Part shown: positions 9,031 through 37,731 of the stretch, piece by piece | Position numbering within the stretch: the stretch's first letter is position 1 | Layout of the letters: each line of letters begins with the position of its first letter | Origin: an uncultured Coriobacteriaceae bacterium | GTDB lineage: Bacteria; Actinomycetota; Coriobacteriia; Coriobacteriales; Eggerthellaceae | DNA length: 37,731 bases | Reading direction: 5' to 3' | NCBI GenBank assembly: GCA_902779135.1 | Contig: CACZAR010000013.1 | Span: forward strand, 1-37,731 | The notes under the pieces: model-generated | The model's database searches: none | Seen by the model: the letters and a program-made list of their open reading frames with translations, nothing else | Told to the model about the DNA's origin: nothing | Made by a program: the position numbers and the translations under genes

Positions 9031-10590
9031 CTATTCTGCGGAGACTTCGTCCATGGCCTTCTTGATGCGGGCGAAATCGGCATCGCGTTCAGCCAGCGGA
9101 ACGTTGCCCACGCGGCCGTTGCGTTCGTATTTGGCGATATCGGCATCGGACTGGGCCACATAACGGCGTGCACGCCACTTGGCACGGCCGTCCTTGCCGT
9201 TGTACCACAGGCGCTCGGCAACGGGGTCCCATGCGCGGGCGCGCTCTTCGAACTTGGCGCCGAGCTCGCGCGGGTCTTCGGTGTGCTCGAGATCGGTGGA
9301 TTTGGCGCCGGCGGCTTCCACCATTTCGGCCAGCTTGCCCGTGTTCTCGTAAATGGGGCAGGGGCGCAGCAGGTTGTTGCCGTCGAAGGGCTGGTTGTCG
9401 TAATACTGCATGAACAGCGGGCTGCGCAGTGCGTCGAGCAGCGACACCTCGCGGATGTTGGCGTTGGAGTAGTGCGCGAACACGCACGGCTCGACATCGC
9501 CGTTGGCGTTGATGTGCAGGTAACGTCGCCCGCCCGCGATGCAGCCGCCTACGAATTCGCCGTCGTTCTGGAAGTCAAGCGTGAACAGCGGCTTCTTTTC
9601 GCGCATTTCGCGGATGAAGTGGAACAGGTGCTCGCGCTGCTCGGGCGTGGCCATGAGCTCGGACGTGGAGTTGTAGCCGACGGGCATGAACGTGAAGATC
9701 CAAGCGAACAGGGCGCCCTTTTCGATGAGCCAGTCGAAGAACTCTTCGGAGGCGATGGAATCGGCGTTCTGGGACGTGTGGCAGCACGACACGCCGAACG
9801 GCAGCTGGTACTTGCGCAGAAGCTCCATGGCCTTGTCAATCTTGGCGAACGTGCCGTCGCCGCGACGCACGTCCGTAGCTTCGCCGATGCCTTCAACCGA
9901 GATGGCGGGGACGAAGTTCTTCACGCGAATCATTTCCTTGCAGAAGTCCTCGTCGATGAGCGTGGAGTTCGTGAACGAGAGGAACGCACAATCCTGGTGC
10001 TTTTCGCACAGGCGCATGAGGTCTTTCTTGCGCACGAGCGGCTCGCCGCCGGTGTAGATGTAAACGTGGGTGCCGAGTTCCTTGCCCTGGCAGATGATGG
10101 AATCGATCTCGTCGTACGTGAGCTGGATGCTGTGCCCGTATTCCGCCGCCCAGCAACCGGTGCAGTGCAGGTTGCAGGCGCTCGTGGGGTCGAGCAGGAT
10201 GGCCCAGGGCACGTTGCAGCGCAGCTTCTCGCGGTTGGCTTCCTGCATGGGCCAGGCCAAGAGGTTGCCGTCGACGAGGAACGACTTTATGAGCTGGGGC
10301 ATGACCTCGGGGTTGAGGTGCATAAGCTTGATGAGCAGCTGATACCAGTTGTTTTCTTCGGCGATGAGCTGCCTGAACGAGCTACGCTGGTTGCCGAAGA
10401 GGTTCTTGGGGAGAATGCGGTCGGAGATGTCCATGATCCGCTTCATGTTGGCCTCGGGGTTGGCTAGGAGCCAATCGACCATCTTGAACAGCACAGCGCG
10501 CTTGATACCGGTGGTAGCACCAGGCTTGGCGATTTCATCCATTGAAATCATGTTTGCCTGCTTGAGCTTCCTTGCGGTAACGGGTGTCAT
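9031..10590 (-). CDS. Radical SAM enzyme with C-terminal SPASM-like cysteines
   Basis: The protein has 519 residues. The radical SAM motif CNLHCTGC (C139, C143, C146) ligates the 4Fe-4S cluster that cleaves S-adenosylmethionine, and YTGGEPL (179-185) is the GGE motif. Additional cysteines at 350 (FVGGC), 369 (DVEPC) and 411 (LRPC) match the layout of a shortened SPASM region that holds auxiliary clusters, as in peptide-modifying and anaerobic sulfatase-maturing enzymes. The N-terminal 125 residues are helical and not recognised; the last 90 are charged. ATG 10590 follows GGAGG by five bases. The gene diverges from the TetR regulator, with an operator-like palindrome between. The substrate is unknown; no peptide precursor is adjacent. 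Confidence 0.9.
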   Translation of the reverse strand: MTPVTARKLKQANMISMDEIAKPGATTGIKRAVLFKMVDWLLANPEANMKRIMDISDRILPKNLFGNQRSSFRQLIAEENNWYQLLIKLMHLNPEVMPQLIKSFLVDGNLLAWPMQEANREKLRCNVPWAILLDPTSACNLHCTGCWAAEYGHSIQLTYDEIDSIICQGKELGTHVYIYTGGEPLVRKKDLMRLCEKHQDCAFLSFTNSTLIDEDFCKEMIRVKNFVPAISVEGIGEATDVRRGDGTFAKIDKAMELLRKYQLPFGVSCCHTSQNADSIASEEFFDWLIEKGALFAWIFTFMPVGYNSTSELMATPEQREHLFHFIREMREKKPLFTLDFQNDGEFVGGCIAGGRRYLHINANGDVEPCVFAHYSNANIREVSLLDALRSPLFMQYYDNQPFDGNNLLRPCPIYENTGKLAEMVEAAGAKSTDLEHTEDPRELGAKFEERARAWDPVAERLWYNGKDGRAKWRARRYVAQSDADIAKYERNGRVGNVPLAERDADFARIKKAMDEVSAE

Positions 10591-10658
10591 GTAAACCTCC
10601 ATTCGCGACTGTAAACAATACCAGGGGATTATACTCCTATTGTAGAAATAGCCACAAG

Positions 10659-29871: not shown

Positions 29872-31455
29872 TTACAGAACCGTGTCACCCGTTCCGTCGA
29901 CGTTGATCATATGGTTCTGATGGTCCTCGCCACGATAGAACACGTAGTCGCCAACGATGCAGACGTTATCCACGCTCTCGTCCACCAGCAGGTTCATACC
30001 CGATGAGCCAAGCTGCGCACGATACAGGTGCAGGTCGTTGTTCATCTTCGAGATCACGCCGTGCTCACTGATGGTCGGGTCGGTGAATCCGCCGGGGAAC
30101 ACCGTGAAGCATTCGTTCGTCTCAAGGTTGATGGCGCGCTCCTCGTACTTGTTCATGTCGTAGTACAGGATCCATCCGTCCGTAACGCACAGCTTCTCGG
30201 CCGACGAAGTGGTCAGGATCTTCATGTCGCTGCCGTCGAGGTTTGCGCTGTAGAGCTTGCGCGCGTCTTCGTTGTTCGACCAGTAGATCCTGCCGTTCCA
30301 CAGGTTGAGGTGGTAGGTCTCCTCGAGCTCGTTTTCGCGTTTGACGTCCGTGCCGTCCATGGCCATGCTGTAGAGGCGCAACTTGTCCTCGGCCGACTTG
30401 AAGTAGATGCGCCCATCCGCAATCATCATGTCCTCGGTCGTGCCCATGAAGATGTTCGTCGAATTGCCTCCGTTGGTGTCCATGCTGTAGATGCCCGAGG
30501 CAGTCCGATAGTAAATCACCCCGTCAATCAAGCCGATCTGGCTGCTGGGCTGATCGTTGAGTTTGGTCTTCTCGGAACCGTCAAGGCGCATCTTGTAGAT
30601 GCTCTGCGCATCGTTGCTCTGGTAGTAGATCCACGTGCCGTCGGAAGCAGCGATGCCGCCGTTGAGGTAGTTGCACTGGAGGTTGCCCTCGGTGCCCGAA
30701 TTGGTGGGGTCGTCGATGGTGACGCGCCCGCCTTCCTGATACGTTGCAACTGCCTCGGTCACGCCGCCTGAAGAAGTGGCACTCGTCGCCGACGCACTTT
30801 GCGAGCTGGACGAAGACGCATTCTGGCCGCCGAGGACGACAAACCCCACGATTGCCGCCACGACGAGGAGCGCAATTGCGATGGCAATGGGCACGATAGG
30901 TGCCTTCTTCTGTGCAGCTTGCCCACCGGATGCGCCTTGCTTTCCATAAGCGGGAGTTGCCCCAGGGGCCGACGCCGCACCAGAAGTAGCGGCGTTCTCG
31001 CTCCCCTTCGGCGCAGCCTCCTTAAACTCCTTTTCGCTCGCCAATGGAGCAGAGCCCGAAAGGGTCGCCTGCACGAGCGTCGACAAATCGCCGATGCTCT
31101 TCTCGAGCGGATCGTTCATCGCATCAAGCCAATGCACCACGCCGAGGTAGTACTGCATGCTGCCCGAGGGAAGGGTCTCGGTGAGCTTGAAGGGAATGAT
31201 GGTCAAGCCGTTGCTCACGGCATTGCCGACCTCGCGCAACACTTGGCTCGAAGCATTGGAGAAGTCGGTGAAGATGAGCACCATAATCTTCGCCGACGCA
31301 ATCGCGTCGATGATCGAACCGGCCCAGTCGGACCCGGGCGCGATATCGCGGGGGGCGTACCAACAGCGGACGCCGTCTCCCTCCAGACGCGAGCAAATGG
31401 CATCGGCCACGCTCTTGTCCTTGTGAGAGTAGCTGATAAAGACGTCGTGCGCCAT
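29872..31455 (-). CDS. TIR-domain membrane protein with C-terminal beta-propeller-like repeats
   Basis: The protein has 527 residues. Residues 1-130 are a TIR domain: MAHDVFISYSHKDKSVADAI, a BB-loop region WYAPRDIAPGSDWAGSI, and the candidate NADase glutamate E75 in QVLREVGNA. A low-complexity linker (135-185) and one transmembrane helix (about 187-209) follow, then a Ser-rich stalk and, from about 255 to the end, repeated blades (IYYQSNDAQSIYKMRLDGSE; IYFKSAEDKLRLYSMAMDGT; IYWSNNEDARKLYSANLDGS) typical of DUF5050/propeller sensors. The propeller should lie outside the cell with the TIR inside. GGGGGG lies before ATG 31455. It may signal envelope damage; enzymatic activity is not shown. Confidence 0.88.
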   Translation of the reverse strand: MAHDVFISYSHKDKSVADAICSRLEGDGVRCWYAPRDIAPGSDWAGSIIDAIASAKIMVLIFTDFSNASSQVLREVGNAVSNGLTIIPFKLTETLPSGSMQYYLGVVHWLDAMNDPLEKSIGDLSTLVQATLSGSAPLASEKEFKEAAPKGSENAATSGAASAPGATPAYGKQGASGGQAAQKKAPIVPIAIAIALLVVAAIVGFVVLGGQNASSSSSQSASATSATSSGGVTEAVATYQEGGRVTIDDPTNSGTEGNLQCNYLNGGIAASDGTWIYYQSNDAQSIYKMRLDGSEKTKLNDQPSSQIGLIDGVIYYRTASGIYSMDTNGGNSTNIFMGTTEDMMIADGRIYFKSAEDKLRLYSMAMDGTDVKRENELEETYHLNLWNGRIYWSNNEDARKLYSANLDGSDMKILTTSSAEKLCVTDGWILYYDMNKYEERAINLETNECFTVFPGGFTDPTISEHGVISKMNNDLHLYRAQLGSSGMNLLVDESVDNVCIVGDYVFYRGEDHQNHMINVDGTGDTVL

Positions 31456-32460: not shown

Positions 32461-32771
32461 GGTAGAGCCCCCTTTTCCCTCTTCAGATGTTGGGTCCATG
32501 TGGCATGCCGACCGAGTCAAGCAAGCCAACATGCATAGCTGAATTCAGTATAACCCGTATCTTGTGTCATCGATGAGTCAACCTCAAATACTTGTTTGGA
32601 GAGGTCAACGTATGTCCAGATGTCGGGCCAAGAAACAACAGCGTGACATCATGGCCTCATGAGACACCTCGACACCAACCCCGTATAATTGCTTGTAAGT
32701 TTCATTGGCGAAAGTAGTACTGGAAGCTCCTCTCACCGCACTGATTCGGAATCGAGGGAAAGCGAGAAATC
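32461..32771. other. 311-base divergent promoter region
   Basis: Between the lipoprotein gene (minus) and the HExxH gene (plus). It holds the plus-strand promoter at 32661-32689 and an AT-richer stretch near 32535-32560 with TATACT on the minus strand. No gene or strong repeat is seen. Confidence 0.5.
32661..32689 (+). promoter_or_regulatory. Promoter of the HExxH gene
   Basis: GAGACA (32661-32666) and a perfect TATAAT (32684-32689) are 17 bases apart. The 5' leader to ATG 32772 would be about 75 bases. Confidence 0.65.
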
Positions 32772-33653
32772 ATGGCGAGCAAAGAGCCACTCAAAGGAAC
32801 GGATGCGCTGGAAGCATTGGCCCTGCGCTTTCCACAGCTTTACGTGGCGCCAGCCGAAGGAGCGCAAGATGCCCATCGCGCTGCAGCCGGACATGGCATC
32901 GCACCCGAGGGAGCGAGCCTCGATCACTTCGAGGGAAGCCCGCAAGACGAACTGCGCGAAGTCGACACGCCAGCGGGCCCGGTCGAGGTGTTGTTCTTGG
33001 AGCATCGTCGCGATTTCGAGACGTTCCTGCAGATCATCGGCAACAAGTCTGCTCCTGTGCCCATCGCACGCACGGTGGGCGCCATCACATACAGGGGCTT
33101 GGCCGACTGGGGCAAAGTGGCAGCTGCGCACGCCGCATACCTGGCATCAGGCGGCGACGATTGGAACAGCGAATTCATGCGCTTGGCGAAGGAGCCGGGT
33201 GCGTTCCGCAGCGAGATCATAATCATCTCCGAAGGACCTTACAGCAACGTTGCCGCAGAGGACACGTCGTACTCGGCTGATGAGTGGTTGCACATCTCGC
33301 ACGAGATCCGGCTGCACCACGAATGCGCGCACGTCGTGTGCCGTCGCACGATGCCCGACGACGTGCTGCCCGTGTGGGACGAAGTGACTGCCGACGTGGT
33401 GGGCTTGCTGGCCGCCATCGGGCACTACGATGCCGCGCTGGCCACACGCTTTTTGGGCGTTGGCGAAAGCGGCTTCACCGGCGGACGCCTCGCGGAGTAT
33501 CTGGATGAAGAGCAAACTGCCCGCATCGATGAAATCGCCGCCGAAGTGCACGCTGCTTGCGTTCGCATCGAGGAGATGAGCGGCCCTGCCGAGGCTGCCG
33601 ACCCGTTCGCATTCTTGCTCGACCTCAAACGCGAGCCCCTGATTTCGTATTAA
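32772..33653 (+). CDS. Uncharacterised protein with an HExxH zinc-protease-like motif
   Basis: The protein has 293 residues, soluble, without signal peptide. Residues 183-187 are HECAH in the helix LHHECAHVVCRR, the classic zinc-metallopeptidase motif, and E204 in WDEVTADVVGLLAA lies 17 residues later, at a fitting distance for the third ligand of a gluzincin-type enzyme. The rest of the protein matches no family that I can name; the first 90 residues contain DTPAGPVEVLFLEHRRDFET. The promoter is clear and GGGAAAGCGAG precedes ATG 32772. It lies divergent from, and close to, a double-glycine leader peptide gene, so peptide processing is a possible role. A protease activity is inference. Confidence 0.75.
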   Translation: MASKEPLKGTDALEALALRFPQLYVAPAEGAQDAHRAAAGHGIAPEGASLDHFEGSPQDELREVDTPAGPVEVLFLEHRRDFETFLQIIGNKSAPVPIARTVGAITYRGLADWGKVAAAHAAYLASGGDDWNSEFMRLAKEPGAFRSEIIIISEGPYSNVAAEDTSYSADEWLHISHEIRLHHECAHVVCRRTMPDDVLPVWDEVTADVVGLLAAIGHYDAALATRFLGVGESGFTGGRLAEYLDEEQTARIDEIAAEVHAACVRIEEMSGPAEAADPFAFLLDLKREPLISY

Positions 33654-33697
33654 GCGAAGGCGTGCGAGCGCTCGGCTCGATCGAATTCGCAAAAGGA

Positions 33698-33723
33698 ATG
33701 GCCGGCGGAGTTCTGCCGGCCAT
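33698..33723. terminator. Stem-loop after the HExxH gene
   Basis: ATGGCCGGC (33698-33706) pairs with 33715-33723 over an 8-base loop. It follows the stop at 33653 by 45 bases. No T-run follows, so it is only a likely 3' end. Confidence 0.5.
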
Positions 33724-33756
33724 CATCGTGCGCTGGGCTTTATCGTTGCGCGCTAT

Positions 33757-33809
33757 TGCAACACGCTGGCACCAAAACGCACTGCTGCAACACGCTGGCA
33801 CCAAAACGC
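33757..33809. repeat. 24-base direct repeat
   Basis: TGCAACACGCTGGCACCAAA plus ACGC at 33757-33780 and 33786-33809, identical, period 29. It lies between the stem-loop and the end of the leader-peptide gene; no coding role. Confidence 0.8.
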
Positions 33810-33830
33810 GCTGACGCCAATCGACTACGC

Positions 33831-34088
33831 CTAAATCGAATCCCAAATCTCGCGAAGGTAGTCCAGTTCTTCCTGGGGCGCCTGGTCGTTGCGCCGAATA
33901 GCGAGGGTTTGCTCAAGCGAGTTGCCAGTACCTTTGTAACATATCGCTATAACCTTAATATACCTCTTGTGGCTGTCGTCAAGCACACCGCCCGCAACAG
34001 CATCCAACAGCTCTTCGGGAATCTCGAAAGCTTCACCTTGCTCGATTGCCTGCTTGGCCAGCTCTTCATAGTTAATATCGGATGCCAT
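33831..34088 (-). CDS. Small protein with double-glycine leader (possible RiPP precursor)
   Basis: The protein has 85 residues. The N-terminal half is acidic (INYEELAKQAIEQGEA) and reaches FEIPEELLDAVAGG with the double glycine at 33-34, the same ending seen in Nif11 and other GG-type leaders (hydrophobic-rich helix then A-G-G). The 51 residues after GG (VLDDSHKRYIKVIAICYKGT at the start) contain one Cys, several Lys/Arg and an acidic end. AAAGGGG precedes ATG 34088. It lies between the HExxH gene and the unknown gene at 34302-35321, the latter on the same strand. Precursor status rests on the leader alone. Confidence 0.65.
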   Translation of the reverse strand: MASDINYEELAKQAIEQGEAFEIPEELLDAVAGGVLDDSHKRYIKVIAICYKGTGNSLEQTLAIRRNDQAPQEELDYLREIWDSI

Positions 34089-34301
34089 GGTCGCCCCTTT
34101 CGACTGTTTGCTCCTGCGCTTCGTTTCTATTAACGATACGCTATCAGAACCATGTTTGTCCCATCTTTTCGGATGAACAAGAGACGGAGTCAGCGTTCGC
34201 GCACCCGGGTATGTCGAATTTTGCTGGGTGCGTGGTGTGAATGCTAAGCCTATTCGCTGCCGCAGCTAACTTAGCACGGCGGCACCCGCCAAATGGTGCA
34301 G

Positions 34302-35321
34302 CTAACTCAGCACGTCGGCATGGGCTAGGTGGTACAGCTTGGCGGGATGCAAAACCCCATCCTTCCAACGGGCCTTTGCCCAGTGGGGCATGATCGTGAA
34401 GGCGAACTTTCCGGCCTTGCCATCGTCGAGCTCGATGGGAAGAGACCGCGCGAATGCCGATTCAATCGCCATCTTCCACCGCTCGTCGGCTGCGCCCCAT
34501 GCTTCGAGCAATCCCATGATGTCAGCACCTGGACCCGACTCGAAAGAGGCGTGCACAGCCTCAGGCAGCTCGATGCCGAATTGGACGTCGATGGCGAAAA
34601 CGTTGCCCAGCGTTCCATCGGGGTAGACATCGAACTGGAAGTCAACCGTGCCAGCGGCAGCTGCCATCAGTGCTGAAACCTGCTCGAGCATCGCGTCGTT
34701 GTATGCATGAAAGCCAATCGAATCGAAAACCGGAACCAAATGACCGGGATCTTGCGCACATGCTAACTTCTCAGCATCCGCGAGGTAGCCGCAAACGCGC
34801 AAAGGCGAACCGGGCCGCCCCCTGAACATGCCGAAGAACGACAGCGGCCAACCTTGTGGCATGCGAGCGGCCAAATCAAGGTAGAGATCCGCACGCTCGG
34901 GCTCGCCCACGATTTCGCAGAACGGCCGCACGAGCTCGATGTGCGCTCGAGGTTGGAAATGGATGGCCGCGGTAGGCAGCGCATCCTCCTTGGTATCGAG
35001 CTCGAAACCGCAGTTAATATCATTGTGCTGCTTTCCCACTTCGGAGAACCAATCGAACATCTCGCCATGATCCCCCGCCACCGACGACGAAATGCGCGTG
35101 CCGCGTTCGGCTTGGCCATATAGCACGGTGACATCGAGAAACGGGTCGCCCACGAGCGGATGCTCGAGATAGATGCTGGGGAATTTTTCACCCACCAGGA
35201 AAGGCAACACCGCATCTCGCGCGCGCCCGACACTCTCCCCGAACAGCGCGGGGCCCCGCCCCTCGTCAGCGGCCTGCAAAAGCAGCACCTGATATGCATC
35301 TGAATGGGATAGGGCCTTCAT
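34302..35321 (-). CDS. Unrecognised 339-residue protein beside the GG-leader gene
   Basis: The protein has 339 residues, soluble, no signal peptide or membrane helix. It starts MKALSHSDAYQVLLLQAADE. Notable stretches are GEKFPSIYLEHPLVGDPFLD, LPTAAIHFQPRAHIELVRPF, PLSFFGMFRGRPGS, VDFQFDVYPDGTLGN and the end KARWKDGVLHPAKLYHLAH. The alternation of beta strands with FDVYPDGT-like turns could suit a barrel-shaped enzyme, such as an ABBA-type prenyltransferase of peptide pathways, but I cannot confirm any family. AAAGGTGG lies before ATG 35321; the frame extends upstream to 35528 without a site and into the tandem repeats. It is 213 bases upstream of the leader gene on the same strand. Confidence 0.75.
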   Translation of the reverse strand: MKALSHSDAYQVLLLQAADEGRGPALFGESVGRARDAVLPFLVGEKFPSIYLEHPLVGDPFLDVTVLYGQAERGTRISSSVAGDHGEMFDWFSEVGKQHNDINCGFELDTKEDALPTAAIHFQPRAHIELVRPFCEIVGEPERADLYLDLAARMPQGWPLSFFGMFRGRPGSPLRVCGYLADAEKLACAQDPGHLVPVFDSIGFHAYNDAMLEQVSALMAAAAGTVDFQFDVYPDGTLGNVFAIDVQFGIELPEAVHASFESGPGADIMGLLEAWGAADERWKMAIESAFARSLPIELDDGKAGKFAFTIMPHWAKARWKDGVLHPAKLYHLAHADVLS

Positions 35322-37001: not shown

Positions 37002-37731
37002 GATTCGAGAGAAAGGCACCTCCCGTTCCGCGAGGGCGGGACGATAGACCTCGTCGAGCTTGCCAGGCGGCAGCTCGAGGCGATGGTCAACCAGATCATG
37101 GACTGGCAGGCCGACGAGCTGCGCGGCGAGGGCAACAGGCGCAACGGCTACCGCGAGCGCGGGCTGCTGACGCCGGTCGGCGAGATCACGCTGCGCATAC
37201 CCAAGCTGCGCGAGGGGACGTACTTCCCCGACGAGCTGATAAGGCCGTACTCCCGCGTCGACCGGGCGATGGTCGCCGTCGTCAAGGAGGTCTACGTGCG
37301 CGGACTCTCGACCCGCAAGATCGAGAAGGCGGCCGACGCGCTGGAGTTCGCCTCCCTGAGCCCCTCGCGCGTCTCGCGCATGACCTCCGACCTCGACGAG
37401 GAGGTGGCGGCGCTCAACGCCGAGCGCTTCGACGGCACGTCGTTCCCGTACCTGTGGCTCGACGCCACGTACCTGAACTGCCGCGACGAGGGCCACGTGC
37501 AGTCCAAGGGCGTCGTCACCGCCATAGGCTGCGGCGACGACGGCTCGCGCCGGTTCGTCGGCTTCGGCGTGGTGGACACCGAGTCCGCGGTGTCGTGGAA
37601 GGCCTTCCTGCGCGGCCTGCGCAAGCGGGGCGTGGCGGACGTCAAGTGCGTCGTCTCCGACGCGCACGAGGGGCTCGTCCACGCGGTAGCCGAGGTCTTC
37701 CAGGGGGCGGCGTGGCAGCGCTGCATCGTGC
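37002..37731 (+). mobile_element. IS256-family transposase, 3' end outside the window
   Basis: The frame is open from just after TAA 36999-37001 to the window end, about 243 residues. It shows the IS256/mutator pattern: TIDLVELARRQLEAMVNQIM, NGYRERGLLTPVGEITLRIPK, VYVRGLSTRKIEKAADAL, the first catalytic Asp in LWLDATYLN and the second in VVSDAHEGL. The third catalytic Glu would be beyond the window. No ATG precedes the conserved REGGTIDLVEL part; the first ATG is at 37083, so either a rare start codon is used or the 5' end is damaged. GC is higher than in the flanking sequence, as expected for an inserted element. Confidence 0.85.

Follow-up and report, generated by a model that had tools for sequence, protein, structure and literature searches.

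What is made by three neighboring genes of a rumen bacterium that encode a HExxH protein, a small protein with a leader of the GG type and a 339-residue protein of no recognised family? The genes lie in a 37,731-nt stretch of DNA (the window), contig C13 of a 2.17-Mb MAG of rumen Coriobacteriia that is 83% complete. An initial annotation had proposed a ribosomal peptide pathway, and all three open reading frames are present exactly where it had placed them (Table 1). They are not all on one strand, as it had also remarked: the DUF7005 gene is on the forward strand, while the genes for P0001 and P0003 are on the reverse strand, separated by 213 nt. The P0003 frame starts with the ATG at 35321 and runs down to 34302. 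We favor, with a probability of about 0.7, a reading of this locus as a satellite of a prenylated-RiPP system whose maturase and exporter would be supplied in trans.

Table 1. Features of the three-gene locus (positions in the window).
Feature	Position	Strand	Basis
P0002, 293 aa, DUF7005 (PF22541) with HExxH motif	32772–33653	+	Pfam E 4.6e-42
HExxH motif, DUF7005 residues 183–187	33318–33332	+	H183, E184, H187 invariant in 13 homologues
E204 to D208 of DUF7005, possible third zinc ligand	33381–33395 (D203, 33378–33380)	+	D203, E204, D208 invariant
P0001, 85 aa, candidate precursor/GG-exported peptide	33831–34088	-	GG leader motif
P0001 leader, residues 1–34, ending IPEELLDAVAGG	33987–34088	-	Sequence, alignment
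P0001 tail, residues 35–85, conserved, helical-looking; no Trp after GG, Trp at 82	33834–33986	-	Alignment
P0003, 339 aa, predicted ABBA/DMATS-fold prenyltransferase, clade I, unannotated family	34302–35321	-	AlphaFold model, tree

The three genes are found together in other genomes as well. The nearest relative found, the uncultured Coriobacteriaceae MAG RUG12647 (93–95% DNA identity to the window), has the same order of DUF7005, GG peptide and 339-aa gene, with the GG gene split between two contigs. In UBA3686, DUF7005, a Nif11 peptide and a prenyltransferase-like enzyme are collinear within 2.4 kb, some kilobases downstream of an NHLM-type exporter. A segment of 288 nt (33682–33969, covering intergenic DNA and the P0001 tail) is 100% identical between the window and RUG12647, while the 2.9 kb before it match at only 95% and some 75 nt at the junction are found in RUG12647 but not in the window; a recent exchange and a co-assembly chimera are candidate readings of this segment. 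Short tandem duplications with units of 29 and 36 nt flank the P0001 gene (33749–33806 and 34262–34333), and five degenerate repeats with a spacing of 41–42 nt are located just upstream of the P0003 gene (35418–35606).

The locus does not bring precursor, modifying enzyme and exporter together in one cluster. No RiPP-type maturase or C39 exporter is found beside the three genes, and both occur elsewhere in the genome. The initial annotation had seen no exporter with a C39 peptidase in view; there is none in the window, and the two in the genome are both on another contig, C2. This absence of an adjacent maturase and exporter counts against the satellite reading. A radical-SAM (rSAM) gene at 9031–10602 of the window was considered as the maturase and rejected, as it is 22 kb away and far below every peptide-maturase cutoff, and also because the window has no strict GG peptide elsewhere. 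Two other genes of the window are of separate note. The gene at 29872–31455 encodes a protein in which an N-terminal TIR domain is combined with DUF5050 and a hydrophobic segment that probably spans the membrane, an unusual architecture for a membrane TIR protein, and a gene for a Mutator-family (IS256-like) transposase (37083–37731) runs off the window end.

P0003 has no match among Pfam, NCBIfam and PDB sequences, and the prenyltransferase models of Pfam and NCBIfam, including PF11991, Trp_DMAT, give none at E values up to 1. Its AlphaFold model, calculated with 90 sequences, has a mean pLDDT of 97.0 and a pTM of 0.93. The leading matches to this model by Foldseek and VIA are all ABBA/DMATS aromatic prenyltransferases, with nothing else of note. 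The description as an unrecognised family therefore holds for the sequence but not for the fold, which is the antiparallel barrel with alpha-beta-beta-alpha repeats of these enzymes (VIA Z scores of 14–17 to many of them). The Z score is 17.2 for CymD (rms distance of 4.0 for 289 aligned residues), 16.6 for PriB, 15.3 for FgaPT2 and 14.7 for PatF. At the level of sequence, an hhalign comparison of the P0003 family profile with a DMATS profile, which is shallow (two proteins), gives a probability of 0.7%. P0003 is kept out of the named prenyltransferase sequence families because of the lack of a Pfam or NCBIfam match, its fold class being a separate question, and the missing sequence-level link to known prenyltransferases weighs against the prenylation view. 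From the model, P0003 is a predicted prenyltransferase whose family has no annotation so far.

Conserved residues of the barrel strands are consistent with this prediction. Glu53, Asp63, Arg175, Lys328 and Tyr330 are invariant among the 90 family sequences, and Gln229 and Lys316 are nearly so; these residues are on barrel strands. Polar residues are found with i, i+2 spacing in several strands: Arg175 (together with Tyr179 in clade I); Asp227, Gln229 and Asp231; Lys316 and Arg318; and Lys328 and Tyr330. Arg175, Lys316, Lys328, Tyr330, Glu53 and Asp63 are candidates for diphosphate binding. We take this set to resemble the diphosphate-binding barrel of ABBA enzymes, and Asp63 may correspond to the Mg2+-binding Asp of NphB.

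Of the 137 genomes of the host family, 23 have relatives of P0003, often several each, and the window's own genome has five. A scan of species genomes finds 80 loci, mainly in animal-gut MAGs. The hosts are Coriobacteriia (Olsenella, Atopobiaceae, Eggerthellaceae and others) and Lachnospiraceae, together with a small number of other Firmicutes and Synergistota; a single genome of rumen or gut Coriobacteriia, or of some Lachnospiraceae, can have as many as 11 matches. Cultured carriers include Olsenella intestinalis KCTC 25379 (locus L153) and Lachnospiraceae bacterium AC2029 (L163). The tree of the family has two clades, I and II, and P0003 belongs to clade I. Other copies in this genome that have only 26–27% identity to P0003, a level also seen for clade II, are on contigs C27 and C55. 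Wherever two full-length family genes lie within 350 nt of each other, one is of clade I and the other of clade II, in either order (since the loci are related to one another, these cases do not count as independent), and several of these pairs overlap by a few bases. Such strict pairing points to a heterodimer, or else to two steps in succession. P0003 has no adjacent clade-II partner, unlike the usual arrangement, and this is a further point against the satellite reading.

The pairing could also mean that the ABBA fold has been kept and catalysis lost, at least in clade II, with the proteins serving to bind the leader or a partner. The close pairs, often overlapping, do look like obligate partners, and clade II lacks Tyr179, Gln123 and Arg125 of clade I. 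On the other hand, Glu53, Asp63, Arg175, Lys328 and Tyr330 are invariant in both clades, and we consider this loss of function unlikely.

The neighborhoods of the family support its association with Nif11-like GG precursors, radical-SAM maturases and NHLM/C39 exporters. Within 1 kb of family genes there are 1.96 GG peptides per 10 kb, compared to 0.11–0.49 farther out. For GG peptides with a Nif11-like leader this is a density some 4 to 18 times that of the more distant bins, and several of the peptides pass the Pfam Nif11 cutoff. A RiPP-type rSAM is found in 18 of the 80 loci and an NHLM-like ABC exporter in 13. The rSAM maturases are nearest to TIGR04463, Clo7bot or CefB, all below the curated cutoffs, while a C39 exporter member in each of loci L163 and L174 passes that of TIGR03796. 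Precursor, rSAM, prenyltransferase-like enzyme and exporter occur together in L163, L167 and L174, and L180 has the last three of these. In the window's genome, C27 carries two family enzymes with a Nif11 peptide and an rSAM next to them, C55 has, besides a family enzyme, GG peptides and an rSAM with 34% identity to the query maturase, and C5 has a family enzyme and a Nif11 peptide. The family at large therefore shows what is expected of a RiPP cluster, precursors with a conserved leader and a variable core beside a modifying enzyme. A 9.6-kb contig (G118:C237) has five family genes or fragments in tandem, with interspersed Nif11-like peptides and an rSAM maturase.

The precursors near the family genes have similar leaders and widely different cores, among them short Cys/Trp peptides (DSWWCPTATSCPNYEVMR, SWYNCMNETW) and zinc-ribbon-like tails. 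In the window's genome, the core of the Nif11 peptide on C27 begins SDWYCASVCPQN, and that of a peptide on C73 is TWYNCMNETW. Cores of the zinc-ribbon type (CxxC...CxxC) follow GG/Nif11 leaders in L135 (9723–9986), L108 (4785–5171) and L102 (6855–7148). A Trp residue is found within six residues after the GG in 29 of 43 distinct cores, with P of about 1e-22, a value that assumes a background of 1.3% and is indicative only, as many loci are related. The enrichment is as strong for GG peptides of the same genomes located more than 2 kb from a family enzyme (14 of 19), and it therefore tracks the genomes and not adjacency to the enzyme. The only Nif11 peptide from genomes lacking the enzyme (G115) has no such Trp, too small a sample. 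The placement of this Trp after the GG is the basis for proposing it as the prenyl acceptor.

A different acceptor is conceivable. P0003 might prenylate a small molecule such as free Trp, an indole or a phenol, with the peptide genes being neighbors in a shared variable region, since its closest folds are mostly enzymes for free Trp or indoles. The linkage with precursors, maturases and exporters is systematic across Coriobacteriia and Lachnospiraceae, however, and Trp sits after the GG site. This gives the small-molecule reading an outside chance, lower than that of lost catalysis.

The window's own peptide is the most difficult part. The GG-type leader ending claimed for P0001 is present, at the end of an acidic leader as in other exported peptides. 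P0001 is the sole ORF in the window that passes a strict GG-leader filter, and none passes in 40 dinucleotide-preserving shuffles. It has no match in Pfam, NCBIfam or PDB sequences, and the Nif11-like leader models TIGR03798 and PF07862 do not match it. Searches by tblastn found no match to P0001 in plasmids and phages, and alignments of P0001 and DUF7005 found no relatives on viral contigs. Four relatives of P0001 share its leader end and a similar tail pattern, with Leu36, Lys52 and Gly55 invariant and an aromatic residue near the C-terminus. P0001 lacks a Trp after the GG, and its tail shows conservation where a variable core would be expected; both count against the satellite reading. The leader agrees with the idea of a cleaved precursor, while the conservation of the tail in five homologues is a sign that had been named in advance as speaking against it.

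The relative in Olsenella SIG37 (locus L128) follows a clade-I enzyme that is 67% identical to P0003, with a gap of about 220 nt, compared to 213 nt in the window; that enzyme is itself preceded by a clade-II copy. Based on this order and spacing, P0001 is taken as a member of the prenyltransferase-linked system. Alternatively, P0001 could be a class II (GG-leader) bacteriocin, or a signalling protein, that carries no modification and whose tail is folded into helices; P0003 and DUF7005 would then act on other precursors, of the Nif11 type. The helical-looking tail, kept in all five homologues with no Trp after the GG, is consistent with this alternative, as are the two of the five P0001-type peptides that have no family enzyme close by, and the relatives give weak, sub-threshold matches to Bacteriocin_IIc and class IIb families. 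It accounts less well for the shared order and spacing in the window and L128, and in UBA3686 a Nif11 peptide occupies the slot beside the enzyme. The alternative falls only slightly short of an even chance, and the odds that P0001 is prenylated are about even.

P0002 contains the sequence HHECAH at residues 182–187. The initial annotation had pointed to the HExxH motif and to Glu204, and His183, Glu184, His187, Asp203, Glu204 and Asp208 all prove invariant in 13 homologues; the protein therefore has the HExxH and the conserved acidic candidate for a third ligand that are expected of a zinc metallopeptidase. DUF7005 is present in 12 of the 137 genomes, all of which also have the P0003 family (some as fragments). 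A different sample, of 396 genomes of the phylum and thinner for the host family, gave no further carrier (E 1e-5). In eight of 14 loci its neighbors include a prenyltransferase-like gene, a GG peptide, an rSAM or an exporter. In S24M_St_71, the DUF7005 gene is between an exporter pair and a prenyltransferase-like gene, on one strand, and in UBA3686 it is downstream of the exporter pair, directly followed by the Nif11 peptide and prenyltransferase-like genes. It is plausible that DUF7005 belongs to the peptide system. That it is a peptidase is a guess, based on the HExxH motif and the downstream acidic residues. A structural or regulatory role in the cluster has an even chance of being correct, as no match to a known peptidase family was found, the structure model from four sequences is too poor for use (pLDDT of 51.6), and cleavage at the GG is already supplied by the C39 exporter; such a role leaves the invariance of the HExxH and downstream D/E residues unaccounted for. 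Overall, the ribosomal peptide pathway first suggested for these genes is upheld for P0003, plausible for DUF7005 and least certain for P0001.

Leader-dependent prenylation by an ABBA enzyme is already known for a Nif11-leader RiPP. MppC of Moorena producens geranylates a Trp residue in a lanthipeptide precursor with a Nif11 leader (PMC12715784). Like the predicted enzymes of the P0003 family, MppC is a soluble ABBA-type prenyltransferase in a RiPP cluster, with a Nif11-like leader and a Trp-bearing core. Its cluster is of the class II lanthipeptide (LanM) type, from a cyanobacterium, whereas the P0003 family, compared to MppC by description, has rSAM maturases, NHLM exporters, two paired clades, DUF7005 and gut anaerobes as hosts. 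The system here would share the enzymatic idea, with a different enzyme family, partners and hosts. The cyanobactin prenyltransferases PatF, PirF and PagF share the ABBA fold and RiPP substrates, but they are leader-independent and act after core excision and macrocyclisation (PMC12715784), and PatF has about 6% identity to P0003. The DMATS-type Trp/indole enzymes CymD, PriB, IptA and FgaPT2 are the best fold matches (Z scores of 15–17 over about 280–290 residues), but their identity is 8–14%, there is no sequence-profile match, and the substrates known for them are free Trp or small indoles. Nif11/NHLM radical-SAM RiPP clusters (TIGR03798, TIGR04064, TIGR04463, TIGR03796/03797) have the same leaders, rSAM maturase and C39 exporter architecture; the P0003-family loci add the ABBA prenyltransferase pair and DUF7005, and their rSAMs are below the cutoffs of the curated maturase equivalogs compared. 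A literature search, with most subscription journals and preprints outside its scope, found no report that links prenyltransferases and RiPPs with Olsenella or the rumen, links Nif11 and radical SAM with Coriobacteria, or names DUF7005.

In the satellite reading, P0003 would be a soluble ABBA barrel that takes its isoprenoid from an allylic diphosphate and attaches it to the side chain of an aromatic residue in a GG-leader peptide before the leader is removed; its activity, prenyl donor, acceptor and leader dependence are inferred. Across the family, the Trp following the GG site would be the likeliest acceptor. Radical-SAM maturases may modify some of the same precursors, and C39 ABC exporters of the NHLM type, whose genes are elsewhere in the genome, would cut after the GG and secrete the product. 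P0001 would be the GG peptide of this locus; it would belong to a divergent class whose helical tail is longer, and its processing and export would take place in trans. DUF7005 would serve the pathway in an accessory role and might be a zinc peptidase.

A broader proposal, which we make tentatively and at somewhat less than even odds, is a new RiPP branch of gut anaerobes, in which the GG-adjacent Trp of Nif11-leader peptides would be prenylated by obligate clade I/II pairs, with rSAM modification, NHLM export and DUF7005 as a dedicated protease. A prenyltransferase-like family that has no Pfam or NCBIfam model is now tied to exported peptides. If the proposal is true, the branch would yield secreted prenyl-Trp peptides, which are comparable in principle to the ComX pheromones. 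Prenylation alters the membrane behavior and activity of peptides, and the products could therefore act in the gut community as antibiotics or as signals.
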